64,000 nucleotides of DNA from Edaphocola flava (GTDB lineage: Bacteria; Bacteroidota; Bacteroidia; Chitinophagales; Chitinophagaceae), in assembly GCF_004118155.1 (NCBI RefSeq), contig NZ_SAIQ01000002.1, positions 186,001 through 250,000 on the forward strand. Direction: 5' to 3'. The position numbers were made by a program, and so were the translations under genes. Each line of letters opens with the position of its first letter. Within the stretch, counting starts at the first letter, position 1. Positions 7,627 through 32,630 of this stretch are shown piece by piece. The notes beneath the pieces are model-generated. The model did no database searches and was not told where the DNA came from. It was given only the letters and a program-made list of their open reading frames with translations.

Positions 7627-10530
7627 TTATTCTTTTACAATTTTAGCACTGGTTATGTTGCCATTGTCATTGACAGTCACCAGGTAATTGGCTGCAGCCA
7701 GTCCGGTCAGGTCTACCTGCTCCATATTGCTTTTTATGGTCAATTCTTTAGCCATGCTGCCATTTATATTGTAAATACTGACTTTACTGTTTATCGTAGC
7801 ATTCTGGATATAAATTACATTTTTAGCTACTGTCGGGAATATCAGAGTTTCCTTCATACAGTTTACAAATGCATTTGCAACTGTACTGTAGGTAAAGCTC
7901 CTGTCATTGTCTACCAGTTTAAGTCTGTAGTACAATTTTCCTTCGGCAGATACATCTTTGAACATGTACTTGCTATTGGATCCTGTGGGTGATACAGTAC
8001 CTATTTCAGTAAAGTTTTTACCATCATTACTTCTTTCGACTCCAAACTCGCGGAATTGTATTTCGGTGTTTGAAGCCCAGCTTAGGATTGCATTACAATC
8101 TTCTACCGTGGCGCGGAAGTAGGCTAGTTCTATAGGCAATGGCTGTGTATAGGTAACAGTGTATGTAGCAGCGGTTGCATCTGGTAAATTTGCAGCATCA
8201 TAGGTGACATAAGTGAATGAAGTATTCAATGTGCCGCCCGGAGTGGAAAGAGACGGTGCGATGGATAATAATGAAGGATCATAGCTAGTGATAATACTTC
8301 CAGCAACCAATACAGAACCGTTATATTTCAGTATAAACGCTGCGGTAGGCAGGGTAACTATTTTCAGTTTTTTAGTATTCCAGTTTACCTGAACGCCTGC
8401 ATTGTCTTCCATGTCAGAGCCCTGTAAGGGTACATCACTTAAGGATACAAAGGAGTTGTATACCGGAGCTCCGCTAACATTTTTATTCCGGTTATAACTT
8501 TCCGGTAAGCGATCATATGCGAACGTGATTTGTGTAACATCAGTAGTTGTATTTACCGGTGAAACCGAGATCATCGGATTGACGGCAATGATGTTGCTTC
8601 CGGACAGGTTATTGGTGCCAGAATTGCTTCCGGTAAAGACCCAGTTGGAGGGCAAAGAACCTGCACTGTATACAGAACCATTGATCATACTATTGCTGCT
8701 GATCGCAACTTTATACTCGGCATACGAGGGTGCAAAAAGGCTGAAAGAGCCATCGGCAGCCACTGTAGTACTACCCAGAATATGATCGTCCTCAGGATCG
8801 ATAAGGTAAGCATAAATAGCAGCTCCGGAGAATGTACTGATGGTAGCACCATCTACCAGACCGTTTTCCATACCATTGGCATCGTTATAAACTCTGCCCG
8901 CTATTTTGAATGATGATTTACGCAGGAAGAAGTTGTCAAAATACGCATCATTACCGGCCACATCAGATGAAGTAACAATAAAGTAAACACCGTAGCTGCC
9001 GCTGTTATTAGCAATAAAATCGGTGAATGCCTTATTCCATCCTATGTTTACACTATCCGTAGCATTACTGGTGGTGGGTACTACCGAAATAGAACCTAAA
9101 GCAGCTGTATCTCCGGTAGATATTCTTTTTACAAAATATTTCACTACCGTAGGTTTGGCTACTGCAGCACCCTGTTGCCATTTGTTTGCAGACTTGCCAT
9201 AGAAGCCCATGGAGTAAGTATTGCCGGCATCCAGGGTAACCGTATCGGCAAATATTCTGGCATTAAGACTGCTGTCCTGAAGAGAACTACCATTGATGGC
9301 CAGGAAGCGGTCATTCCATGCGCCGCTTGTTGCGCCGGTAGATATTCTCCATCCGAAAGTGGCATTATTGAGGATACCTTTTAACTCCATATCTGTACTT
9401 CCGGATTCTAAAAATACGGTGCCTAGGAAGTCCGTAACCAGGTATTTACCTTCATCCCAAAGGAAGCCATTTGTACCATAGTTGCTTCCGCCCTGGTATC
9501 CATAATTGCTTCCTGTTGTATAACCGGTCACATTAGAATATAATTCCGGGTGTGAAGCAGTTAAAGAAAAATACTTCGCATTCGGATGGTTCAGTACAAA
9601 ATTATTTCCGGTTGAATCAGATGAACCAAATGTACCATTAAAGGCATTTGTAACAAGATTGGGGTTTTCTAATACAGGGCCATCAGTGGTTACTTTTGGG
9701 TCTAAAAAACCAAAATTAATTTCTCCCGACTGGCTATATTGATTCGCATTGATGTTAGAAAACAAGAAGCTGCCATCAGCCGTCAATGAAGGAAAGTTTA
9801 AGCCCGATTGTGGCATAGGCTCTGTTCTTGGTTGCAGGCTTCCGGATGGTGCCGCAGCCACAGCAAAGATTTCTAAGCCGTTCAGTACAGAAGCATCAAA
9901 CAGATATGAGCCGTCTTCTCCTGAGGTCGTCATGGCTACGGGTGTTGCAGTAGATAATTTTTTAATCCATACTTTAACGCCCGGAACGGCAGGCTCACTG
10001 CCGCTTTTTACATTGTTCAGATCGTAATCTTTGAACACTTTGCCACTGATATAGAAGTTGTCAAATAGTTCCAATTCGGTCACGCGCATACTAACGATAG
10101 ATAAGTTTACTATCCTGTAATAGCGATATGCGGTGTTGTTGTTGATCGCAAAAAACTTACGGGAAGCTTGCGTTTTTTCCCAGCTGTTACCGGCACGTGT
10201 ATCAAGTGTTACATAGCCTGTTGTTGCGCTGTTAGAAGCCTCAATACGCCAATTGGTGGGGAGATTAGTGTTGTTGTCCTGGTTGGTCAGGCTGTAGCCG
10301 GTAATCACCTTCGCAGTACCAAGATCGACTCGAAATGTGGCACTTGCAGAGATGCTGCCGTAGCTATCAGATGCATTGTCAAGAATGTTGGAAGCGCCGC
10401 TTCCGGAACTTAAAGAAACAGGTGTAGACACTGTGGTCACATCTGTTAATGGGGTTTGGGCTGTCAGTGCATGACTTGACAGCAGGGCACTAAGTGCCAC
10501 AACCCAGCGGAGGGTAGAATCTCTCTTCAT
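7627..10530 (-). CDS. Large multidomain secreted protein with T9SS sorting domain
   Basis: A 967-aa protein with a signal peptide ending near ALTAQ. Domains as read: a discoidin (F5/8 C)-like beta-sandwich at about 25-165; an SdrD-B/carboxypeptidase-regulatory-like module beginning YISGKVFKDYDLN near 167; a carbohydrate-binding-like region at about 270-550 that includes Gly/Asn/Tyr-rich repeats; a second CNA-B-like module starting FKIAGRVYNDANG; a fibronectin-like stretch beginning LPIELAYFRATVEDCNAILSW, typical just ahead of T9SS sorting domains; and a C-terminal type A-like sorting domain ending NYLVTVNDNGNITSAKIVKE. The domain set suggests surface exposure and carbohydrate or matrix binding. 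No catalytic motif is visible. It is a single-gene unit with its own terminator. Confidence 0.85.
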   Translation of the reverse strand: MKRDSTLRWVVALSALLSSHALTAQTPLTDVTTVSTPVSLSSGSGASNILDNASDSYGSISASATFRVDLGTAKVITGYSLTNQDNNTNLPTNWRIEASNSATTGYVTLDTRAGNSWEKTQASRKFFAINNNTAYRYYRIVNLSIVSMRVTELELFDNFYISGKVFKDYDLNNVKSGSEPAVPGVKVWIKKLSTATPVAMTTSGEDGSYLFDASVLNGLEIFAVAAAPSGSLQPRTEPMPQSGLNFPSLTADGSFLFSNINANQYSQSGEINFGFLDPKVTTDGPVLENPNLVTNAFNGTFGSSDSTGNNFVLNHPNAKYFSLTASHPELYSNVTGYTTGSNYGYQGGSNYGTNGFLWDEGKYLVTDFLGTVFLESGSTDMELKGILNNATFGWRISTGATSGAWNDRFLAINGSSLQDSSLNARIFADTVTLDAGNTYSMGFYGKSANKWQQGAAVAKPTVVKYFVKRISTGDTAALGSISVVPTTSNATDSVNIGWNKAFTDFIANNSGSYGVYFIVTSSDVAGNDAYFDNFFLRKSSFKIAGRVYNDANGMENGLVDGATISTFSGAAIYAYLIDPEDDHILGSTTVAADGSFSLFAPSYAEYKVAISSNSMINGSVYSAGSLPSNWVFTGSNSGTNNLSGSNIIAVNPMISVSPVNTTTDVTQITFAYDRLPESYNRNKNVSGAPVYNSFVSLSDVPLQGSDMEDNAGVQVNWNTKKLKIVTLPTAAFILKYNGSVLVAGSIITSYDPSLLSIAPSLSTPGGTLNTSFTYVTYDAANLPDATAATYTVTYTQPLPIELAYFRATVEDCNAILSWASNTEIQFREFGVERSNDGKNFTEIGTVSPTGSNSKYMFKDVSAEGKLYYRLKLVDNDRSFTYSTVANAFVNCMKETLIFPTVAKNVIYIQNATINSKVSIYNINGSMAKELTIKSNMEQVDLTGLAAANYLVTVNDNGNITSAKIVKE

Positions 10531-13387: not shown

Positions 13388-15076
13388 ATGAAGAGCATAT
13401 TTGCGATACTAACCACGTTAGTGTTGTTACTGTATGCGCATGTAAGTAAAGCACAATGTACTGGCACCACTAGTCAGGGCACGGCTGGATATATATGCGT
13501 GGGTAACACCCTTTCTCTCGGTTCCGTCCCCGGCAATAATTATTACCTGGTGAACGTAATTGGAGGGCTCACTTATAGTGTCACCTCCACACGTAACACG
13601 GGTATTACTGCAAGGACAGCCGACGGAAGTTCCGTTATTAATTTCAGTACTTCCAGTTCCCTTACTTTTACCCCAACTTATTCCGGCCAAGCCAGAATTG
13701 TCAATTGTTCGTCTCAAAGTGCGACCATGACGATCAGCGTGAGCGGTGGATCTAATTCTGTTGATGCCCAGACCAATGCAGGTACTAATGCATGGGTTGA
13801 ACATTTTTACAAACGCCTTGATGCAACTGCCGGAGCGCCTAGCGATGCTAATGCATTTGGCCGTTACCTGGGTACTTCTCTTTCAGGCCAGACCGAAACG
13901 TTCTCTTCCACATTTGGTGGTGGTGATGATGTTACCTGTAACCCGGTATATTCTCAGAGCACACAACGCTCAACCTACCTCAATTCTTACTTTGCTGTTC
14001 GCTATAGAATGAATTCTACTAAAGCGAAAGGCGTATATCTGGCCGATATGGCGGCTGATGATGGTGTACGCTTAACAGTTGACGGAACACTGGTGTTCAA
14101 TCGCTGGCAAGAACAGGGTGTTACCAGTTATACAAAAGAAATTTTCGCGCTTACAGGCACCAGCAGTTTACTGCTGGAGTACTATGAATCGGGAGGAGCA
14201 AACGAGTTGTCCTTTACAAACTTCAGCCGCGTTTCCAATACCATTAGTACTGCAGATCAGACCATTTGTTTTGGTGGCAGTATTACAGCCTTATCTGCCA
14301 CAAATACACTTACTGCAGCACCGATTTCCAGTGATGCACGTTTTACCATTACCTACCAGTGGCAGCAGTCGACCGATAATGTAAACTTTACCAACATTTC
14401 CGGAGCTACCAGCCAGAACTATACACCCACTGTTACTGCAGCTGGTGTATACTATTTCCGTCGTATTGCGAATGTAAGCCGTACCAATGATGGTATGCCC
14501 AGTGCTTTCAACTTACCGGATGAGAGCAATTCTGTAAAAGTTACGATTATGGCTACCCCGGTAGTGACAATTACAGGCGGTACATCAGTATGTCAGAATG
14601 CAACAGCACCCAACCTGACCTTTACCAATCCGCAAACTACAGCTATCACTGTAATTTATAAAATAAACGGTGGTACTAACCAGACCGTAAATATTCCGGC
14701 CAGCAGTAGTACAAATGTTTCTGTAGCAACGGGTACTGCCGGTACCTTTAGCTATGTTGCCAACAGCGTAGCTTATCAAACAGCTCCTAACTGTACCAAT
14801 ACCGGTATCAGTGCGTCGGCTTCTGTAATTGTGCGGCCTTTACCCAACGGTACACTGTCATCTGGTGCTTCACCAGTCTGTCAGGGTACACAAGTACAGC
14901 TGCGCTTCACATCCAGTGCTGGTACAGGCCCGTTCAGCCTGGTTATTAACGGAACAACCTATAACAGTATTACCAGCGGTACATTATTTAATGTGACGCC
15001 AAATATAAATAGTACGACAACATTTAACCTGACCAAAATAACAGATGCCAATACCTGCGTTCTGCAGAATCCATAA
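13388..15076 (+). CDS. Secreted protein A1: PA14-like domain plus Ig-like domains, truncated last domain
   Basis: A 562-aa exported protein with signal peptide MKSIFAILTTLVLLLYAHVSKA. After an N-terminal beta-rich part (about 24-125), residues about 130-285 resemble a PA14 domain (KGVYLADMAADDGVRLTVDG, then a strand region ending LSFTNFSR), a fold often used for carbohydrate or surface binding. Two Ig-like domains follow (about 290-390 and 395-480). The last domain (about 485-562) stops abruptly after NLTKITDANTCVLQNP, where comparable Ig/SprB-like repeats continue with one more strand. There is no T9SS sorting domain. It is the first gene of the first A-B-C cassette, with B1 49 bases downstream. 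The final 75 residues closely match those of A2. The function is unknown; a tip adhesin is my inference. Confidence 0.85.
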   Translation: MKSIFAILTTLVLLLYAHVSKAQCTGTTSQGTAGYICVGNTLSLGSVPGNNYYLVNVIGGLTYSVTSTRNTGITARTADGSSVINFSTSSSLTFTPTYSGQARIVNCSSQSATMTISVSGGSNSVDAQTNAGTNAWVEHFYKRLDATAGAPSDANAFGRYLGTSLSGQTETFSSTFGGGDDVTCNPVYSQSTQRSTYLNSYFAVRYRMNSTKAKGVYLADMAADDGVRLTVDGTLVFNRWQEQGVTSYTKEIFALTGTSSLLLEYYESGGANELSFTNFSRVSNTISTADQTICFGGSITALSATNTLTAAPISSDARFTITYQWQQSTDNVNFTNISGATSQNYTPTVTAAGVYYFRRIANVSRTNDGMPSAFNLPDESNSVKVTIMATPVVTITGGTSVCQNATAPNLTFTNPQTTAITVIYKINGGTNQTVNIPASSSTNVSVATGTAGTFSYVANSVAYQTAPNCTNTGISASASVIVRPLPNGTLSSGASPVCQGTQVQLRFTSSAGTGPFSLVINGTTYNSITSGTLFNVTPNINSTTTFNLTKITDANTCVLQNP

Positions 15077-15125
15077 GCCTAAAAACTATATAAACAATAA
15101 TCCATTAAAATTAAAAATGCAAAAG

Positions 15126-16388
15126 ATGAGTAAAATTAATTACACCCGACGTTTTTTCAGCCTGCTACTGGCAATGGTTTCAGGCCTGGTGCTGGTCAAT
15201 GTGACCCAAAGCGCCGCGCAGATCAGCAGTACCTCAGTAACGGTACATGACTCTTCTTCTACCACCTTACCATCGGCAGCTTCAGCTTCGGCAAGCCCTG
15301 CCAGCTTCTGTACCGGTAGTGGTACAACTTTAAGCATCAGCGGCGGTCGCCTGGGTTCAGGTACTCCGGCATCTCAATGGGTATGGTATGCTGATGCTTG
15401 TCCTACAGCAACTGCCACACCAGTTGGTACCGGCGCATCTATCAACGTGTCTCCTACTAACCCGGGTACACAGCCAATCACAAAAACTTATTATGTACGT
15501 GCAGAAGGAGGCTTCTGTAACTACACTACCAAATGTGTACCGGTAACCGTAACCATCAACCCTACTCCGGCAGTTACCGCACCTGCAAACCAGGTATACT
15601 GTGCTAATGCTACAGCTGCTGCTATCGTGCTGAACGGTACTCCAACCGGCGTTACTTATGCGATCAGTGGTGGTGCAAGTGTTGGCCTGGCTAATGCTAC
15701 CGGTCTGACTCAGATCCCTTCATTTACCGCAATCAATGCTACATCAGCACCGGTAACGGCAACGATCAGCATTACACCATCTGCGAATGGTTGTACTGGT
15801 ACTGCGGTAACCTATACTATTACGGTTAACCCAACTGCTGCTATGGTAGCTACCAGCGACATCACCAAGTGTAATGGTAATACCGTTCCTGCTATTGCAT
15901 TCAGCAGCCCGACTACCGGTGGTACTGTAACATACTCATGGACTAATGATAACCCATCTGTAGGTATTGCTGCAAGTGGTACAACAAGTTCTATCCCATC
16001 ATTCACTGCGACTAATGCAGCATGTACCGATGCGGTAGCGAACATTGTAGTTACTCCAATCTATACCAACGGCGGACAAACATGTAACGGTACTCCGGAT
16101 ACATTTGTAGTAAGAGTACGTCCTACGCCGAACGCAACACTGGCCGCGGTTAGCGCCGAGCTGTGTCAGGGTACTGCAGTACAGGTTACTTATACAGCTA
16201 CTTGTGGAACAGCACCGTTCAATGTAGAGATCAGACAAGATGGTACTACTCCATTCCAAACCTATAATGGTGTAACCAGTGGTTCTAATATCACCATCAC
16301 ACCAACCCCAACCAGCCAGGGTGCTCATACATATGATCTGATGAAGATCACTGATGCGAACGGCTGTACTAACCCTGTAACCCCATAA
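15126..16388 (+). CDS. Secreted protein B1: Ig-like repeat protein, no sorting domain
   Basis: A 420-aa exported protein with a signal peptide ending VNVTQSAAQ. I start it at the ATG at 15126 rather than in-frame alternatives at 15117 or 15045, because this gives exactly the same length and N-terminus as its paralogue B2. The mature protein begins with an alternating strand (ISSTSVTV) and a Ser/Ala/Thr-rich linker, then about four Ig-like domains with paired cysteines, for example FCTGSGTTLSISGGRLGSG and CNGNTVPAIAF. It ends inside a domain at ITDANGCTNPVTP without the expected last strand and without a T9SS domain. The composition is strongly Thr/Ala/Pro-rich. It sits between A1 and C1, 29 bases before C1. 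I recognise no named family beyond the fold. Confidence 0.85.
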   Translation: MSKINYTRRFFSLLLAMVSGLVLVNVTQSAAQISSTSVTVHDSSSTTLPSAASASASPASFCTGSGTTLSISGGRLGSGTPASQWVWYADACPTATATPVGTGASINVSPTNPGTQPITKTYYVRAEGGFCNYTTKCVPVTVTINPTPAVTAPANQVYCANATAAAIVLNGTPTGVTYAISGGASVGLANATGLTQIPSFTAINATSAPVTATISITPSANGCTGTAVTYTITVNPTAAMVATSDITKCNGNTVPAIAFSSPTTGGTVTYSWTNDNPSVGIAASGTTSSIPSFTATNAACTDAVANIVVTPIYTNGGQTCNGTPDTFVVRVRPTPNATLAAVSAELCQGTAVQVTYTATCGTAPFNVEIRQDGTTPFQTYNGVTSGSNITITPTPTSQGAHTYDLMKITDANGCTNPVTP

Positions 16389-16417
16389 TGAGGTTATAGT
16401 TCTTGACAGAGAACAAC

Positions 16418-17350
16418 ATGAAACAGATAATCAAACATATAGTCCCATATTTAATCGGCCTGTTATGGACCGGAGTGATCTGCACTCCGGTTCCCGGCAG
16501 GGCTCAGATATCGACTGCGAGTGTGCTGGTGCTGAATACCCCGGTAATAGATTCTATTACATATAAGTGTTATGGCGGTATACCCATTCAGGTGTATGTC
16601 TCTAATCAGATAAAGCCTTGTGTATATTCGATCGTCAGTACGATACCGGCGCAGCCGAGTTTTGCTCCACTGGCGGTCAATAATACTGGTACATTCTATA
16701 ATGTAACGGGAATTACCGATGCAGTCTTCAGGGTACATAACGGATCGTGTTATACAGATCAGGCCATACATTTTGACTGTAATGGTATGCCACTTCCGGT
16801 TATCCTGCAGGATTTCAGTGCCAGACTGTATAAAAACAGCCAGGCATTACTGAACTGGGAGGTAACACAGGAAAGAGGAATCATCCGTTATGAAGTAGAA
16901 GAATCTACAGATGGCAGGACCTTTACTTACCTGGGTAGCGTAACAGCCAGCGGCAGCGAGCATTATGAATATACCGATGAAAGCCTGCAACAAGGTTATA
17001 ATTTTTACAGATTGCGTATTATAGATCAGGACGGAAGTGTGCAGTACAGTGCAGTGCGTTTTGTAATCTATAGCCGCGACAGAGCCATGGTATGGTATCC
17101 TAATCCGACCAATCATTACCTGTACCTCGAATTCTATAATGAAGATGGTGCGGAAAATCTCTCTGTAAAAGTATATAACAGTATAGCTGGTACACAATGG
17201 GTAGACCAGAAGTATAAATTGTCAAAAGGGCTGAATAAACTGGCGATAGATGTAAGTTTATTATCCGATGGGTCTTATTTCCTGATGTATGGTTATGAAG
17301 GTAGCCGTCAGCAGGCAGGCAGCATCAAGTTTCAGAAAGTGAGTCAATAA
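16418..17350 (+). CDS. Secreted protein C1: T9SS cargo with C-terminal sorting domain
   Basis: A 310-aa exported protein. The ATG at 16418 gives a clean signal peptide ending PVPGRAQ and exactly the same length as C2; an in-frame TTG at 16403 is disfavoured. The mature N-terminus has the alternating strand ISTASVLVL, then an Ig-like domain (about 40-130) with cysteines at KCYGG, KPCVY, GSCYTD and HFDCNG. This domain keeps the final strand that A and B lack. Next comes the fibronectin-like LPVILQDFSARL...LLNWEV segment, and then a type A-like T9SS sorting domain beginning VWYPNPTNHYLYLEF and ending IKFQKVSQ. As the only T9SS-tagged member, it probably anchors the cassette's product at the outer membrane. 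Confidence 0.87.
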   Translation: MKQIIKHIVPYLIGLLWTGVICTPVPGRAQISTASVLVLNTPVIDSITYKCYGGIPIQVYVSNQIKPCVYSIVSTIPAQPSFAPLAVNNTGTFYNVTGITDAVFRVHNGSCYTDQAIHFDCNGMPLPVILQDFSARLYKNSQALLNWEVTQERGIIRYEVEESTDGRTFTYLGSVTASGSEHYEYTDESLQQGYNFYRLRIIDQDGSVQYSAVRFVIYSRDRAMVWYPNPTNHYLYLEFYNEDGAENLSVKVYNSIAGTQWVDQKYKLSKGLNKLAIDVSLLSDGSYFLMYGYEGSRQQAGSIKFQKVSQ

Positions 17351-17377
17351 ATCTTTTTGCATTTTTCTATATAACAG

Positions 17378-17406
17378 GCACCGGCTTTCTAGCCGGTGCT
17401 TTTTTT
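17378..17406 (+). terminator. Terminator after C1
   Basis: GCACCGGCT and AGCCGGTGC form a hairpin followed by seven T. The same stem sequence recurs after C2, so the terminator belongs to the duplicated unit. Confidence 0.92.
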
Positions 17407-17489
17407 GTGCCAGAAATCTATTATTCTCTTTTGTGAGATAAAATTTTTCATTTAGTATTCATAAACTTAAATGGAATGTTAAAATATGT

Positions 17490-17497
17490 TACATTTG
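17490..17497 (+). promoter_or_regulatory. -7 promoter element for the A2-B2-C2 operon
   Basis: TACATTTG matches TAnnTTTG and ends 10 bases before the A2 ATG at 17508. The second cassette therefore has its own promoter, with a very short leader, unlike the first. Confidence 0.65.
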
Positions 17498-17507
17498 TTA
17501 TTGAGAA

Positions 17508-18446
17508 ATGAAACAACTCAATCCAGGTTTGCACCATCGTGGAAAGCGCAGCTTTCTATGCGTAGCTGTGTGCCTGTTTTTCCTCTTGCTGAGTATAGCA
17601 ACGGAGAGCAGGGCGCAGGTAACCAACATTGTGCTAAGTCCTAACACGGGATCCTATTGCCAGGGAGATTCTGTAACGATTACATTTACCGTTGCAGGTT
17701 TAAGTCTGGTGCCTACAACCACCATTGATATAGCCAACTCTTCCAATACCTCTCTGACTACTTTATATTCAGGAACCGGCCTGCTCAACCTTGGTGGCGG
17801 ACAGTTCAGTATTAAAGTCGTCATACCAGGTACACCAGCCGGTATTTTCGGTACGGCGCGACATTTCAAAATATCTTATAGCGGAATTCTAGGTAGCGGA
17901 AACGGTAACTCTGCTGATTTTGCATTATATGCCACCACGGTAGGAGGGACGGTTGCTTCGGCACAAACCATCTGTAGTGGTACAAGCCCATCCAATCTTA
18001 CCTTAAGCGGGCATACCGGATCTGTTGTAAAATGGCAGCGTGCAACAGACGCAGCATTTACCAGTCCTACAGATATCGCCATCACCAGCGCTACACTAAC
18101 CAGTGCCAATATTGGTAATCTTACTGTAAACACATATTTCCGTGCGGTGGTACAGAATGGAAACTGTACTGCAGCAAATTCCAGCTCAGTACTCATCACG
18201 ATGAGGCCTAACCCAGCCGGAACGCTATCTACGGTTGTGACGCCATTATGTGCCGGCACACAAACGCAGTTACGATTTACATCCAGCGCCGGAACCGGAC
18301 CTTTCAGCCTTATCATCAACGGTACAACTTATAACAGTATAACCAGTGGCACAGCGTTTAATGTCACTCCGAATATAACCACGACCACAACATTCAACCT
18401 TACTAAAATAACCGACGCCAATGGATGTATACTTCAGAATCCTTAA
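17508..18446 (+). CDS. Secreted protein A2: shorter Ig-like paralogue of A1, truncated last domain
   Basis: A 312-aa exported protein with a long signal peptide: basic start (HHRGKR), hydrophobic core, ending TESRAQ. The mature protein has an Ig-like domain (about 40-140, VLSPNTGSYCQGDSVTITFT), a second (about 145-230, TICSGTSPSNLTLSGHTGSV) and a final incomplete domain (about 235-312) that closely matches the end of A1 and stops at ITDANGCILQNP. It has no PA14-like domain and no T9SS sorting domain. It opens the second cassette and lies 63 bases ahead of B2. The A position has therefore diverged in its N-terminal domains while keeping the same C-terminal module. Confidence 0.83.
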   Translation: MKQLNPGLHHRGKRSFLCVAVCLFFLLLSIATESRAQVTNIVLSPNTGSYCQGDSVTITFTVAGLSLVPTTTIDIANSSNTSLTTLYSGTGLLNLGGGQFSIKVVIPGTPAGIFGTARHFKISYSGILGSGNGNSADFALYATTVGGTVASAQTICSGTSPSNLTLSGHTGSVVKWQRATDAAFTSPTDIAITSATLTSANIGNLTVNTYFRAVVQNGNCTAANSSSVLITMRPNPAGTLSTVVTPLCAGTQTQLRFTSSAGTGPFSLIINGTTYNSITSGTAFNVTPNITTTTTFNLTKITDANGCILQNP

Positions 18447-18509
18447 AATAAATCAACAATAACAATCAGAAATCAATCCACTATCTATCACAATTTAAAG
18501 TGCAAAAAG

Positions 18510-19772
18510 ATGAACAAGAACAATTACACATTAAGATTTTTTAGCCTGCTGCTGTTGCTGGTATCAGGCATACTGCTTGGCAGTACGATGCAAAGTGCTG
18601 CGCAGATCAGCAGTGTTACGGTAACGGTAAATGACTCCTCGTCCATTACCTTACCTACTGCCGCCACGACTGCGGCTAGTCCTACCAGTTTCTGTACCGG
18701 TAGCAGTACAACTTTGAGTGTTACCGGCGGACGTTTGGGCTCTGGTACACCCACAGCTCAATGGGTATGGTATGCTGATGCCTGTCCTACAGGTGCAGCT
18801 ACACCAGTAGGTACCGGTGCTTCGATCACCGTTTCTCCGACCAATACCGGTACGGCACCGATTACCAAAACATACTATGTACGTGCCGAGGGTGGTTTCT
18901 GTAACTACACTACACCATGTGTACCGGTGACCGTAACCATCAATCCGACTCCAACTGTTACCGCACCTGCTAACCAGGTATATTGTGCGGGCGCAGCAAC
19001 TACTGCGATTCCATTAAGCGGTACACCTACCGGTGTTACTTATGCGATCAGTGGTGGTGCAAGTATCGGTCTGGCAGATGCCAGTGGTCTGACTCAGATC
19101 CCTTCATTCACACCGATCAATGCTACATCTGCTCCGGTAACGGCAACCATCAGCATTACGCCAACGGCAAACGGATGTAGCGGTACTGCAGTAACCTTTA
19201 CCATTACGGTTAACCCGACTGCAGCTATGGTAGCGACCAGCGACATCACGAAGTGTAATGGCAATACCGTTTCTGCTATTGCATTCAGCAGTCCGACTAC
19301 CGGTGGTACCGTAACTTACTCCTGGACAAATGATAATCCATCTGTAGGTATTGCTGCAAGTGGTACAACCAGTTCTATCCCATCATTTACGGCCACCAAT
19401 GCAGGCTGTACAGATGCGGTTGCCAATGTAGTCGTAACACCAATCTATACAAATGGTGGTCAGACTTGTAACGGTACTCCGGATACATTTGTAGTAAGAG
19501 TACGTCCTACGCCAAATGCAACGCTTGCCGCAGCTAATGGACAGTTGTGTGAGGGCACTGCAGTACAGCTGACCTATACAGCTACCTGCGGAACTGGTCC
19601 GTTCAATGTAGAGATCAGACAGGATGGTGCAATACCGAATCAAATATATAATGGAGTAACTAATGGTGGCAGCATTACCATCACACCTACTCCGACCAGC
19701 CAGGGTGCGCATACCTATGATCTGATGAAGATTACAGATGCCAATGGCTGTACCAATCCTGTAACGCCATAG
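18510..19772 (+). CDS. Secreted protein B2: Ig-like repeat protein, paralogue of B1
   Basis: A 420-aa exported protein identical in length to B1 and highly similar along its whole length. Residues about 235-350 are nearly the same (NGNTVSAIAFSSPTTGGTV, ASGTTSSIPSFTATNA) while many codons differ synonymously. Signal peptide MNKNNYTLRFFSLLLLLVSG, ending MQSAAQ. The mature N-terminus is the alternating strand ISSVTVTV, followed by a Ser/Thr/Ala linker and about four Ig-like domains. It ends at ITDANGCTNPVTP, the same truncated point as B1. No T9SS domain is present. C2 starts 19 bases downstream. The function is unknown; a shaft subunit is my inference. Confidence 0.85.
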   Translation: MNKNNYTLRFFSLLLLLVSGILLGSTMQSAAQISSVTVTVNDSSSITLPTAATTAASPTSFCTGSSTTLSVTGGRLGSGTPTAQWVWYADACPTGAATPVGTGASITVSPTNTGTAPITKTYYVRAEGGFCNYTTPCVPVTVTINPTPTVTAPANQVYCAGAATTAIPLSGTPTGVTYAISGGASIGLADASGLTQIPSFTPINATSAPVTATISITPTANGCSGTAVTFTITVNPTAAMVATSDITKCNGNTVSAIAFSSPTTGGTVTYSWTNDNPSVGIAASGTTSSIPSFTATNAGCTDAVANVVVTPIYTNGGQTCNGTPDTFVVRVRPTPNATLAAANGQLCEGTAVQLTYTATCGTGPFNVEIRQDGAIPNQIYNGVTNGGSITITPTPTSQGAHTYDLMKITDANGCTNPVTP

Positions 19773-19791
19773 GGCTTGCAGAAACAAACAG

Positions 19792-20724
19792 ATGAAACGA
19801 ACCAGTAAAAATATCATTCAGGTTATTTGCTGCCTGTGCTGTAGTGTGCTGTTTTCAGCACCACTACAGCTGCGGGCACAGATTGCCAGCACCAGTGTAC
19901 TGGTGCTGAAAACACCTGTCATAGATTCTGTCGGATATCACTGTTCTGGCGGCCTGCCTATTCAGGTGTATGTCTCTAACCAGATTGCGCCTGTAGTCTA
20001 TTCCATACAGAGTACCGTTCCTCCTGTTGCCCCCATACCCACCAATCATTCCGGAACATTCTTCAATGTATATGGTATTACAGATGCGGTGTTCAGGGCA
20101 CATAACGGATCCTGCTATACCGATATGGCGGTGCATTTTGACTGCGGAGGTGATCCGCTTCCCGTTACTTTGCTGGATTTTACCGTAAAACTGTATCAGG
20201 ATAATAAGGCATTATTAAACTGGACCGTAAGCAGGGAAGATGGTCTTGCACGTTATGAGGTAGAAGAGTCAACTGACGGAAGGACTTTTAAATACCTGGG
20301 AGCAGTAGTTCCGGTCAATGGTCAGGGGCCTAAAGATTATGAATTCACAGATGACCGGCTGGAGCAGGGCTACAACTTCTACCGTCTGCGTATGGTAGAC
20401 CAGGACGGAAGTGTACAATATAGTGCCGTACGCTTTGTTATCTACAGCCGCGACGGAACAATGGTGTGGTATCCTAATCCTACCAGCCGATACCTGTATA
20501 TGGAATTCTATAATGATAACCGGGCGGAGACTATTGATATACGGATCTATAACAGTATATCCGGAAATGAATCGGCCAAACAGCAGTATAAACTGGAACG
20601 CGGCCTGAACAAACTGGCTGTAGATGTGAGTCTGCTGCCGGACGGATCTTATTTCCTGATGTACAGCCTGGGAGGGGACCGGCGCCATGAAGGCACGATC
20701 AGGTTCCAGAAAGTGAGTCAGTAA
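19792..20724 (+). CDS. Secreted protein C2: T9SS cargo, paralogue of C1
   Basis: A 310-aa exported protein, the same length as C1, with a signal peptide ending PLQLRAQ. The mature start IASTSVLVLKTPVIDSV parallels C1. The complete Ig-like domain keeps the cysteine pattern (YHCSGG, GSCYTD, HFDCGG), followed by the fibronectin-like LLDFTVKL...LLNWTV segment and a T9SS type A-like sorting domain from VWYPNPTSRYLYMEF to IRFQKVSQ. C1 lacks a short insertion present here around VVPVNGQGPKDYE, balanced by a shorter loop elsewhere. It closes the second cassette and is followed by a terminator that resembles the one after C1. Confidence 0.87.
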   Translation: MKRTSKNIIQVICCLCCSVLFSAPLQLRAQIASTSVLVLKTPVIDSVGYHCSGGLPIQVYVSNQIAPVVYSIQSTVPPVAPIPTNHSGTFFNVYGITDAVFRAHNGSCYTDMAVHFDCGGDPLPVTLLDFTVKLYQDNKALLNWTVSREDGLARYEVEESTDGRTFKYLGAVVPVNGQGPKDYEFTDDRLEQGYNFYRLRMVDQDGSVQYSAVRFVIYSRDGTMVWYPNPTSRYLYMEFYNDNRAETIDIRIYNSISGNESAKQQYKLERGLNKLAVDVSLLPDGSYFLMYSLGGDRRHEGTIRFQKVSQ

Positions 20725-20750
20725 ATTACTTTTTGCATTTTTTTAATATA

Positions 20751-20778
20751 AGCACCGGTCATATGGCCGGTGCTTTTT
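20751..20778 (+). terminator. Terminator after C2
   Basis: GCACCGG and CCGGTGC pair around an 8-base loop, followed by five T. The stem and the preceding TTTTTGCATTTTT context match the terminator after C1. Confidence 0.9.
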
Positions 20779-24280: not shown

Positions 24281-25720
24281 TTATCCTTTAATAAACTTTA
24301 CCGTTCCGGAATAGTTCTCCAGGTTCACAGTTAGTATATAGGAGCCTGCAGGGAGACCTGCAATATCGATTCTGTTCTGATGCAGGTTAACGAAACGCTT
24401 GATCAGTCTTCCTTCAATACTGCTGATAGAGACCTGCGCATGACGAAGATCTTTGTCTGAAGAAAGTGCCAGATAATCAGAAGCAGGGTTAGGATAGATC
24501 GTAACCTGTAGCGGTGTTATAACCTTCTTTATATTATTGGGCGGAGTAGTATCTGTAACAAAAGCATAGTAAATTTTGGTCCGGTAATCTGTATTGGTAT
24601 AAGGAGGTTGATTGTCAAAGTTATTATGGATCATGCACACTATATCACTATCCTGATCCCGTTCTATTGTGATCTGCCATATATTCAATGTATCATTGGT
24701 CGTCAGATTTACTTCCTTTCGGGTTGTCTGCATTAATAAATTATTGACATACTCATTCTGGTATACCCTGAACCAGTGCATTGTAGCGTCGATTTCTTCA
24801 GATACATTATTGCCGGAATAGCTGTATTGTTTGTAACTGTCAAATGTCAGCGGACTACCCGGATAGGCTTTTTGCTTTATTACTTTTGATACCTGGTCGT
24901 TGAGATTGTATTGGTAAGAAAATTCCTCCTGGTAATTATTGTGCCGGGTTAAGGTGGTTTTACTAAGCTTACCCGCAATGTAGACATAATTTATCTCCTC
25001 CAACTGGAACCAGCTATTTTGATTTTCGTAACTAAACTTTTTATGGGTAAGTAATTGATCATTGTTATATGCCCAGGTCTCCTTTTCATAATACTGCGGC
25101 GGTGCGAGCGGGTTATTAATATCCCATTTTCTACTGACCATTTGGGTAATGTGCCCGAGATTGTCGTAAGTGTAAGTATAGTCGAACCGTGGTATAATAT
25201 CGTAGCTTATGGGATATAGATCATAATCTACATCACTCACTGTACGTAACGTAGTTTTTCCCTCGGCATTCAGTACAAAATCGATATGCTCTTTTTTGTC
25301 AACCGTCTGTGTAGAAAAATCATAATCTCCACCAAACGTTTGTACGTTGCCGGGACTGAATTTATTAATATACCCGTAATCCTTTCCAATGAACTTGTTA
25401 TATAGCCACAGGCTATCCAGTGAAAAGAGCAGGGCGGGGGTTTCCTTAATGTAAAGATTTACATAGTCCAGTAAATATCCTTCATATTCACTGGCCCGTC
25501 CTTCTGAAATAGGGCCTGTCAACATTAGTTTTGCCGGATCAGGCATGGTATAACCGTTTCGGTTATAGATGCGGGTAGAATCCAGGTATTCCCAGGACGT
25601 ATCGTTAGCGATAATGCCTTGTGCAAAACTAAATGCCTGTATCTTTTTGGTCTGTGCATGCGCATATCGGGTACACATAGCCATCATCAAAGTCGTAAAA
25701 AGCAATAAGCGGTACATCAT
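24281..25720 (-). CDS. Secreted T9SS cargo protein, unknown function
   Basis: A 479-aa exported protein: a signal peptide of about 22 residues ending RYAHAQ, a Tyr/Asn/Asp-rich central region (about 100-370) with repeated short motifs of the form WxYNNDQLLTHKKF and YTYDNLGHITQMVSR, and a C-terminal T9SS type A-like domain starting VTIYPNPASDYLALSSDKD and ending SGTVKFIKG. The YDNxGxIxxMVSR-type repeats resemble RHS/YD-like beta-strand repeats, but too few are present to call it an RHS protein. The gene lies 24 bases after the DUF4230 gene and is probably co-transcribed with it. Two Met codons are adjacent at the start. Confidence 0.82.
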   Translation of the reverse strand: MMYRLLLFTTLMMAMCTRYAHAQTKKIQAFSFAQGIIANDTSWEYLDSTRIYNRNGYTMPDPAKLMLTGPISEGRASEYEGYLLDYVNLYIKETPALLFSLDSLWLYNKFIGKDYGYINKFSPGNVQTFGGDYDFSTQTVDKKEHIDFVLNAEGKTTLRTVSDVDYDLYPISYDIIPRFDYTYTYDNLGHITQMVSRKWDINNPLAPPQYYEKETWAYNNDQLLTHKKFSYENQNSWFQLEEINYVYIAGKLSKTTLTRHNNYQEEFSYQYNLNDQVSKVIKQKAYPGSPLTFDSYKQYSYSGNNVSEEIDATMHWFRVYQNEYVNNLLMQTTRKEVNLTTNDTLNIWQITIERDQDSDIVCMIHNNFDNQPPYTNTDYRTKIYYAFVTDTTPPNNIKKVITPLQVTIYPNPASDYLALSSDKDLRHAQVSISSIEGRLIKRFVNLHQNRIDIAGLPAGSYILTVNLENYSGTVKFIKG

Positions 25721-29434: not shown

Positions 29435-32092
29435 TTATTTTGTGGCTTCTATTAATTTAACCAATTCTGTTTCTTCTTTATTATCCTTGTCAATGGCTTC
29501 TTTTGCAAATGAAGCAATATGGTTTAATGATTTGTCCGGAACCAATTTAGAGTCTCTTAGCTGCAATCCAAACCAGGCAACACTTGCAGCCAGTCTGAAA
29601 TCTTTGGACATCAATTTTGCCGGAGTCAGGTTGTTTGGAATCAGCTGGGTCATTAATTTGCTGGTATCTTCATTCGGCTCTTTATACCTGAATTGCACGC
29701 GGGCCAGTTCATTTGATTGAGTGAGGGTGCTGTCTGCAACAGCGGTTGTATACCTGCGGGCTATCCCCTCAACTGCATAAGGACTGGAAACGCCTTTGGG
29801 AATAATCTCATATAAAGCCGTAACGGTGTGTCCACTGCCCAACTCTCCCGCATCTATAGCATCATTAGCAAAATCTTCTGCATTCAGTTTACGGTTCTCA
29901 TAACCGATCAGGCGATAAGACTGTACCAGAGCAGGATTAAATTCAATCTGTATTTTTACATCCTTTGCTATGGCAAACATCGTAGCACCAAATTCTTTCT
30001 GTAAGGTCTTCTGTGCCTCTGCCAGATTATCGATATAAGCATAGTTGCCATTCCCTTTATCCGCCAGGAGCTCCATTTTACTGTCTTTATAATTACCCAT
30101 TCCGAATCCCAGGCAGGTAAGGAAGATATTGTCTTTTCTTTTCTCCTCGATCAGCTCCTGCATACTGCGATCGCTTGAGGCGCCTACATTGAAATCTCCG
30201 TCTGTAGCCAGTATAATGCGGTTATTGCCATTGGGGATAAAATTTTCCTTAGCCACCTTGTATGCCAGTTCTATACCCGCGCCTCCGGCTGTGCTGCCAC
30301 CTGCATTCAGACGGTTAATCGCATCCATAATTTTCTCTTTCTGATCACCACTGGTGGAGGGCAATACCAGACCAGCCGCACCCGCATATACTACAATCGC
30401 GACATGATCTTCTTTACGCAGCTGGCGTGTCAGCAGTTCCATAGACTTTTGTACATAGGGCAGCTTATTGTGATCACTCATAGATCCGGATACATCGATC
30501 AGGAATACAAGATTGCTTGGCGGTATCTGATCCTGTGGAATAATGCGGCCCTGTAAACCGATCTTCAATAATCGGTGCTGCGGATTCCAGGGGGCATCGC
30601 TGTATTCCGTATTAATGGAAAACGGCTTGCCTGCTTGTGGCTGCGGATACTTATAAGCAAAGTAATTGATCATCTCTTCAATGCGTACCGCATCTTTAGG
30701 CACTTTCGTGCCACTATTAATAAATCGGCGGATATTGGCATAAGAGGCCTTGTCTACATCGATAGAAAATGTCGACAGCGGTTGATTCAGCGGACTTTCA
30801 AACTTATTCTCTTCAAACAGCTCATACGCTTCCTCATTGCTGGTTTGCTCCTTTTTATCAGTTTGCTCTTCGGTTTTTGCAGGCTGTTTTTGCTCTGTTG
30901 ATGCTTCAGTTTTCTTACGTTTACTTTTACGTTTGAAGATATTGTCAAAAAGATTGCCCTCTTCTATTACTTCTTCTTCACCTCTTTTAGTGGTAACCAG
31001 GATGACGCCATTGGCTGCACGGGCACCATACACGGCTTTAGAAGTTGCATCCTTTAAGATAACAATGTCTTTTATGTCTGCAGGGTTAATGCTGTTTAAT
31101 CCGCCGGAATATGGAGCACCATCCAGTACGATCAGGGGAGCACTGCTGCTACTTATAGAGCCCATGCCGCGCACCATAATGTCCGGATTGGAACCCGGCT
31201 GTCCGCCACCTTTAGTTACCATTATGCCAGGTGCTGCTCCGTCTAAGGCAGCTGCTACACTGGTTACGGGCCTTTTGGCAATTTCCTTTGCGGTAACGGT
31301 ACTGACTGCACCGACATAGGATCTGGAATCAAGCTTTGCACCATAAACAGTCACTTCATCAACTTTTGTACTATTATAGCCCACTGTAATCCATTTTGAC
31401 TGTAATCGCTTTAAAGAAACTTCTTGCGTTTCCGCTCCGAATGTCTTCACGATCAGGATGGCATTACTGTCCGGAACCTGTATACTAAAGTTTCCATTAT
31501 CATCACTGATTACCGATTCTGAGGTCCCTTTTAATTGTACCACTGCGCCGGATATGGCTTCCATATCCTTATCAATAACCATACTGTTAAACAGGAAGGC
31601 TTTATTGGATGCAGGGTTGGCGGCAATAGCACTATTTGCCTGTTCCGACTGCGCAAGAGTCCTGTGCTTTACGGAGGTTGCAGCTACATGCTGATCTGTA
31701 TTTTCTTTAGGCGTTTCATTGTTGTATTGCTTAACCGGTGCCTTAGGTGCCACCGCAATTATGGCCGTCTTAGAAGACTTGATCACAGTCTTGTTACTAT
31801 CTGCATCTGTTACCGGTATTTCAGTTGCTTGCTGCTGTGCTGTATGCTGCGCCACTTCTGTTGCCGGTGTCGTATTTTCATCACGACTCAGCTGCCATAC
31901 AATACCAGATCCTACCAGCAATACAACCGAGGCTGCCATATATTTTACCCAGGGCACAAATGCACGGCGTTTTTCCGGTTCCTCATCCAGGCGTGATTCT
32001 ATACGCTCCCAGAGCTGCTCTTTGAAGGGTACTTCCTCTTCCCCGTCTGCAGCCGCTTTGAACTCATCAAATATGTTATTTTGCAATTCCAT
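29435..32092 (-). CDS. Membrane-anchored fusion: anti-sigma-like N-terminus, regulatory domain, TonB plug and YfbK-type VWA
   Basis: With the ATG at 32092 (10 codons inside the longest frame) the protein has about 885 aa, and the start overlaps the sigma-factor stop by 17 bases. Residues 1-45 are charged and helical like cytoplasmic anti-sigma regions. A transmembrane helix (about 50-67, MAASVVLLVGSGIVWQL) follows. Then come a low-complexity linker, a carboxypeptidase-regulatory-like domain (about 165-240), a TonB-receptor plug (about 255-370: ITSV-like start, IMVRGMGSISSSSAPLIVLD, AVYGARAANGVILVTTKRG), a basic KRKSKRKK linker, the VWA N-terminal region of YfbK proteins (about 435-500), the VWA domain with MIDAS DVSGSMS at 533, and a YfbK-type C-terminal domain. 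No beta-barrel follows the plug. It probably regulates the sigma factor from the inner membrane, but the external signal is unknown. Confidence 0.85.
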   Translation of the reverse strand: MELQNNIFDEFKAAADGEEEVPFKEQLWERIESRLDEEPEKRRAFVPWVKYMAASVVLLVGSGIVWQLSRDENTTPATEVAQHTAQQQATEIPVTDADSNKTVIKSSKTAIIAVAPKAPVKQYNNETPKENTDQHVAATSVKHRTLAQSEQANSAIAANPASNKAFLFNSMVIDKDMEAISGAVVQLKGTSESVISDDNGNFSIQVPDSNAILIVKTFGAETQEVSLKRLQSKWITVGYNSTKVDEVTVYGAKLDSRSYVGAVSTVTAKEIAKRPVTSVAAALDGAAPGIMVTKGGGQPGSNPDIMVRGMGSISSSSAPLIVLDGAPYSGGLNSINPADIKDIVILKDATSKAVYGARAANGVILVTTKRGEEEVIEEGNLFDNIFKRKSKRKKTEASTEQKQPAKTEEQTDKKEQTSNEEAYELFEENKFESPLNQPLSTFSIDVDKASYANIRRFINSGTKVPKDAVRIEEMINYFAYKYPQPQAGKPFSINTEYSDAPWNPQHRLLKIGLQGRIIPQDQIPPSNLVFLIDVSGSMSDHNKLPYVQKSMELLTRQLRKEDHVAIVVYAGAAGLVLPSTSGDQKEKIMDAINRLNAGGSTAGGAGIELAYKVAKENFIPNGNNRIILATDGDFNVGASSDRSMQELIEEKRKDNIFLTCLGFGMGNYKDSKMELLADKGNGNYAYIDNLAEAQKTLQKEFGATMFAIAKDVKIQIEFNPALVQSYRLIGYENRKLNAEDFANDAIDAGELGSGHTVTALYEIIPKGVSSPYAVEGIARRYTTAVADSTLTQSNELARVQFRYKEPNEDTSKLMTQLIPNNLTPAKLMSKDFRLAASVAWFGLQLRDSKLVPDKSLNHIASFAKEAIDKDNKEETELVKLIEATK

Positions 32093-32630
32093 TTTTAGTA
32101 GCATTTTGATAGTAATGAACATTTACTAATTGTTGCAGTTTGTTTTTGGCAACATTCAGCTGTGATTTTGAGGTCCCTTCTGAGATCTGTAGCATGGCTG
32201 CAATTTCTTTGTGCGAAAAACCTTCTATCGCAAAAAGGTTGAATACAGAACGGCAGCCATCCGGCAGGTGCTGTAGCAGCTGTAGCAGATCCCTGTGCTC
32301 GATCGGATGATCCGGCGCACGGTCATAAACCGGTTCCTGTTTGACATCATCCAGGGTGAGGTTGAAGTTGGTCTGCTTACGCAATACCTGCAGGCATTGA
32401 TTGGCAGCGATTCTTCTGGCCCAGGAGACAATAGCAGCAGCTTCTCTTAACGTATGGATTTTGGTAAAGATGGCGACGAATACTTCTGTGAGTACATCTT
32501 CAATGTCGGCATCTTGTTTTAAGTATCGTTTGCAGGTGCTGTATAGCTTGGGCGAGAGGTAATCGTACAAGCCTCGCTGGGCTTGCCGGTTGCCTTGCTT
32601 ACATTCGTTTATCAGGGATTCGTTGATCAC
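32076..32630 (-). CDS. ECF-type sigma-70 family RNA polymerase sigma factor
   Basis: A 184-aa protein with region 2 (DYLSPKLYSTCKRYLKQDAD, then IEDVLTEVFVAIFTKIHTLR and SWARRIAANQCLQVLRK) and region 4 (HLPDGCRSVFNLFAIEGFSH, then KEIAAMLQISEGTSKSQLN), joined by a short linker as in ECF sigma factors. The likely start is GTG at 32630, since no ATG lies near the expected N-terminus. The downstream fusion gene overlaps it by 17 bases and has an anti-sigma-like N-terminal helix plus transmembrane anchor, making it the likely cognate regulator. No clear promoter was seen upstream. Confidence 0.93.
   Translation of the reverse strand: MINESLINECKQGNRQAQRGLYDYLSPKLYSTCKRYLKQDADIEDVLTEVFVAIFTKIHTLREAAAIVSWARRIAANQCLQVLRKQTNFNLTLDDVKQEPVYDRAPDHPIEHRDLLQLLQHLPDGCRSVFNLFAIEGFSHKEIAAMLQISEGTSKSQLNVAKNKLQQLVNVHYYQNATKNGIAK

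Follow-up and report, generated by a model that had tools for sequence, protein, structure and literature searches.

The window (the whole stretch of 64,000 nucleotides that was analysed) comes from a 3.54-Mb, 100% complete genome of the Chitinophagaceae, with Edaphocola aurantiacus and Taibaiella as close relatives. Between two genes that read in translation as glycyl-tRNA synthetase-like and mfd-like, it carries two successive cassettes of three genes each (A, B, and C), all on the forward strand. The first cassette consists of A1 (13388..15076, 562 aa), B1 (15126..16388, 420 aa), and C1 (16418..17350, 310 aa), and the second of A2 (17508..18446, 312 aa), B2 (18510..19772, 420 aa), and C2 (19792..20724, 310 aa). 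Upstream start codons would give longer ORFs for B1 and C1, and the starts that yield 420 and 310 aa are those backed by homologues. Each C gene is followed by a terminator (17376..17401 and 20750..20775, both on the forward strand), and the two are near-identical, with an 11-bp stem, a 4-base loop, and a T run. As the genes inside a cassette are separated by only 19-63 bases, and the cassettes from each other by 157 bases and a terminator, each cassette is probably transcribed as one unit. The ORFs thus bear out the coordinates, the gene order, and the constant B and C lengths given in the first-pass annotation, which was equally right about the matching terminators.

The surroundings contain further genes of note. 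Two other proteins with a type IX secretion system (T9SS) sorting domain flank the cassette region (7627-10530 and 24281-25720, both on the reverse strand); the sorting domain of the former lies just under the Pfam cut-off and over that of NCBIfam, and the protein also gives weak F5/8 type C and SdrD-B matches. An 895-aa protein encoded at 29435-32122 on the reverse strand combines CarboxypepD_reg-like, TonB plug, VWA, and YfbK_C domains.

The three proteins differ in architecture and in how far their two copies agree. B1 and B2, both built from four Ig-like domains, are 85% identical, and C1 and C2, each with an Ig-like and FN3-like region followed by a T9SS type A sorting domain, are 63-64% identical. 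A1 and A2 are homologous over the last ~95 aa only (74% identity there), so the description of the locus as tandem-duplicated holds for B, C, and the last domain of A but not for the A heads. The head of A1 is PA14-like (E=1.4e-4, under the Pfam cut-off) and that of A2 is unrelated to it; A2 and B contain weak Ig_7/PKD_5 domains. The sorting domain was found on C alone, as had been proposed from the sequence: Por_Secre_tail matches C1 (17096..17293, E=1.4e-9) and C2 (20470..20667, E=1.1e-6) above the cut-off, and no C-terminal sorting domain was matched in A or B by Pfam or NCBIfam at E 0.1. All three proteins are predicted to be secreted, and B and C each have their own signal peptide; the signal peptides of A, B, and C end in a plain AQ site and, on reading, are not lipoprotein-like. 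Trees built for B, for C, and for the A ends mostly lack resolution. When the window is compared with a related locus (L035), B copies are closer within one genome (83-85%) than between species (76-80%), as if the B copies had been homogenised, whereas the C copies of one genome (64-65%) resemble each other no more than some pairs from different species do (up to 68%).

Both A and B end in the middle of a domain. For comparison, one-piece copies of this last domain, with the residues that follow it, were taken from long proteins of other genomes and none from the cassettes, and the 65 best were made into a profile of 96 positions. Typical one-piece copies run on from the conserved cysteine (GC-VRTTGFTGATATITVN) into a clear final strand. 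The last domains of A and B all align to profile position 74-77 of 96 and then end 3-6 residues past the cysteine. In the window, the match stops at position 74 in A1 (14840..15073) and A2 (18210..18443) and at position 76 in B1 (16125..16385) and B2 (19509..19769), with the stop codon 5-6 residues after the cysteine of ITDANxC. It had been claimed that all four proteins end inside the same domain at this motif, and the profile places that end short of the final (G) strand. Domains just upstream in the same proteins serve as an internal control: they reach positions 92-95, some at low scores, whereas the last domain reaches only 74-76, which argues that the shared stop point is not chance. The sequence thus shows that the last domains of A and B lack their G strand, the cut lying in the F-G loop. 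The two acceptor domains are homologous with consistent differences, the F strand reading LTKIT in A and LMKIT in B and the tails LQNP and NPVTP; the F-strand split is seen in the own genus and in one further genome (G113). The Ig-like domain of C had been said to retain its final strand; by eye it does (...NGSCYTDMAVHFDC), but the profile match to this domain is not convincing.

A candidate for the missing strand lies at the start of the neighbouring proteins. When mature N-termini of B and C were joined to ten acceptor domains and rescored against the 65-copy profile, the 18 donors gained +4.1 to +10.8 bits. A null set of 150 other secreted N-termini, drawn from the loci used for comparison and from a 400-kb part of the window's contig, gained 1.8 bits on average (95th percentile 4.6, maximum 7.2), and the A N-termini gained +0.3 to +2.7 bits only, in keeping with the earlier observation that a conserved strand directly follows the signal peptide in B and C but not in A. 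The window donors are QISSTSVTVHD at the mature start of B1 (15219..15251, +7.3 bits, 0/150 null N-termini as high), QISTASVLVLN in C1 (16505..16537, +6.9 bits, 1/150), QISSVTVTVND in B2 (18603..18635, +10.8 bits, 0/150), and QIASTSVLVLK in C2 (19879..19911, +5.5 bits, 5/150). The weak donor is B of L040 (4.1 bits, 10/150). With 14 non-redundant donors, comparison with the null set gives p = 7e-10, an optimistic value because the tested sequences are few and related. Several B N-termini also align by themselves, at very low scores, to profile positions 78-94 (79-94 for B2), and where B has one-piece relatives, the stretch ahead of their matching domain is usually the G strand of the preceding domain. 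Taken together with the missing G strand, this makes a cassette look like a long adhesin that was cut in the F-G loop and given a signal peptide at each cut. The donors differ as the acceptors do, being TVTV-like in B and VLVL-like in C, and these paired differences may encode pairing specificity.

A and B could in principle also be reunited by stop read-through or a frameshift that fuses them into one polypeptide, as A2 and B2 share a frame with a single TAA between them (also in L034). However, A1-B1 and all B-C junctions of the window are out of frame, three (L035) and four (L036) stops separate A from B elsewhere, and B and C have signal peptides of their own. The frames and the extra stops rule out read-through as a real mechanism, and fusion by either route is scarcely credible.

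The cassette recurs in related bacteria. Profile searches covered overlapping sets of 396 family, 395 class, and 395 phylum genomes. The A-B-C order, which the first-pass annotation had suggested looking for in Bacteroidota, was found, together with the layout of open ends and N-terminal strands, in 9/9 cassettes from six genomes of three genera, the window included: two cassettes each in the window, L034, and L035, and one each in L036, L040 (G113), and L039 (G103). Beyond these six, no genome in the sets had a strong match ending at the cassette stop point, and the remaining strong matches lie in open frames of >1900 codons. The own genus is represented by five genomes, of which G242 has no cassette. 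Homologues of A or B that carry their own sorting domain or stand without C had been named as adverse to the idea of joined subunits; both were looked for and neither was seen among the genomes searched. The sorting domain is again confined to C in L036 and L039, and in L035 and L040 it scores at or slightly under the cut-off. In G103, the A head and the C body are unrelated to those of the window, while the last domain of A, the N-terminal strand of C, and the sorting domain of C are kept; its C gene (L039, 5578-6834, reverse strand) carries an unrelated body between the donor strand and the FN3-like/sorting region. Thus A heads were exchanged between cassettes, and the C body once, with the interfaces unchanged, which is the pattern expected from selection for joining.

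Several other matches in these searches were set aside. An acceptor-like end in G540 (L176, 3660-9956) is not a cassette: in this draft genome a single in-frame stop codon (SGTPL*TVNP) interrupts a G strand of a long repeat protein, perhaps through mutation or misassembly. Short-ORF matches in G106, G369, G681, G281, G671, and others proved to be complete domains, broken frames, or partial matches. A Flavobacteriales genome (UBA7468; L037, 99-17827) contains one uninterrupted frame, rich in the same Ig-like repeats, that is still open at the edge of this locus and measures at least 5909 codons.

AlphaFold2 was applied to two A/B junctions. Construct 1 comprised the last domain of A2, the TAA read through, and full B2. 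The B2 domains were well predicted, and in the last of them the F strand was not followed by another long strand. Directly after the A2 end, a low-confidence strand formed by the artificial linker occupied the place of the donor, which was itself disordered. In construct 2, the L036 junction with stops read as proline, donor residues 131-140 were ordered (pLDDT ~86) with a strand at 132-136, and linker and signal peptide (83-127) stayed below 50. These predictions are suggestive: they are consistent with donor insertion and do not amount to proof. The strand-complementation reading of the first-pass annotation is well supported at the level of sequence (a missing G strand, its equivalent at the N-terminus of B and C, 9/9 cassettes), with one model in agreement and the other uninformative. 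The models also bear on the opposite possibility, that nothing is joined, that the last domains of A and B are stable without a G strand or closed by their short tail, and that the N-terminal strands of B and C are ordinary leaders. The last domain of B2 was predicted at high confidence without a partner and with a short strand in its tail, although confidence is not equal to stability. A leader, however, has no need of G-strand sequence, the A N-termini do without it, and both the stop point and the strand are kept in three genera despite exchanged heads and an exchanged C body. We regard the absence of joining as improbable, and joining by strand complementation as likely on the sequence evidence.

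We therefore favour, as the probable but not assured reading, that the product of each cassette is a surface adhesin divided into three separately secreted pieces, which would be rejoined in the order A<-B<-C by donor-strand complementation and anchored, and probably exported, through C. The N-terminal strand of B would complete the open domain of A, and that of C the open domain of B. A, with an acceptor only and a variable head, would form the tip; B, with donor and acceptor, the middle; and C, with a donor and the sorting domain, the base. From these features we infer that A, B, and C are physically joined and that the chain has an adhesive role. The type A sorting domain of C would bring the chain to the surface and anchor it. 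The genome encodes the translocon protein SprA (2375 bits), and T9SS cargo has been deduced to leave CTD-first while bound to PorV (PMC10994853), so a chain held together by strands could follow C out; joint export of A and B with C is plausible, the pre-joined pieces being pulled out base first. In the G113 genome, the cassette (L040, 9746-13550, reverse strand) adjoins, by eye, two Skp/OmpH-like chaperone genes and a BamA-like gene, a neighbourhood not common to the other cassettes; a Skp homologue belongs to the extended T9SS translocon (PMC10994853).

Two variants of this reading concern export and length. Strands might join while A and B remain periplasmic or leave by another route, C alone being the T9SS substrate, as would fit the lack of a sorting domain in A and B and the selection of T9SS cargo by its CTD (PMC10994853). 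In that case the donor strand of C would have nothing to bind outside the cell, and the variable, PA14-like heads of A resemble surface adhesins; we consider this variant quite improbable. Alternatively, B may also complement B, so that many of its copies would be strung into a true pilus-like fibre, tipped by A and with C as terminator and anchor. With a donor strand at one end, an open domain at the other, and an acceptor homologous to that of A, B could in principle join to itself, and fibre formation from repeated B is plausible. Yet the acceptors of A and B differ consistently, as do the donors of B and C, which hints at fixed A-B and B-C pairs; moreover, each gene occurs once per cassette, and many B subunits would require repeated export on one CTD. 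We consider this reading rather unlikely. Somewhat more doubtful still is the full version, in which a fibre of tip A, repeated B, and base C would be joined in the periplasm and drawn out base first through the T9SS, a single CTD exporting the whole non-covalent train. Our preferred reading remains the split adhesin of three pieces.

This arrangement can be compared with known surface structures. Chaperone-usher pili (type 1, P, Saf) are built from Ig-like subunits without their last strand, and their tip subunit has no donor. The missing strand is supplied by the next subunit through its N-terminal extension (PMC6615685). The cassettes share with them, at the level of sequence, G-strand-less subunits and an N-terminal donor strand, but their domains are of the T9SS adhesin-repeat type, their subunits have multiple domains, and the base carries a T9SS CTD. 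No match to the outer-membrane usher (PF00577) was found in the own genome (the E. coli control was positive), and visual inspection of the genes next to the cassettes showed no PapD-like periplasmic chaperone. Type V pili (FimA/Mfa1 of Porphyromonas) are likewise Bacteroidota surface fibres for which donor-strand joining has been proposed (PMC4789730). In contrast to these, the cassette proteins have signal peptides with a plain AQ site, a donor that is N-terminal as is, and no sign of a protease-opened groove, and the FimA family (PF06321) had no match in the own genome (the Bacteroides control was positive). With usher and FimA families absent from the genome, the cassettes fall into neither pilus class, though by analogy they would work like usher pili. 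T9SS repeat adhesins belong to the same domain family: residues 394-473 of RemZ match the A/B last-domain profile (E=1.3e-12), and for both models the best fold matches in the PDB were fragments of GhpA of Aureispira, with tandem Ig pairs ranking next. Proteins of the GhpA/RemZ type are made in one piece with complete domains, whereas the cassette chain is cut in the F-G loop and spread over three genes. The threads of Sulfolobus consist of one repeated subunit, involve no T9SS, and are unrelated in sequence to the cassette proteins. They illustrate that donor-strand joining has arisen independently in surface filaments (PMC9715654).

For the combination of a donor strand with the T9SS, our literature search returned nothing beyond work on P. 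gingivalis fimbriae (FimA/Mfa) and a broad review, and for T9SS fibres and co-secretion nothing on point. Usher pili, type V pili, and archaeal threads already provide examples of donor-strand joining; if the reading given here is true, pilus-like subunit joining would be new for the T9SS route, and cargo that lacks a sorting domain could get to the surface attached to a partner. In that case, sorting-domain searches would underestimate the T9SS secretome of Bacteroidota. The cassette would also show a route from a one-piece adhesin to a multi-subunit one, by a cut in a single loop that leaves the tips freely exchangeable.
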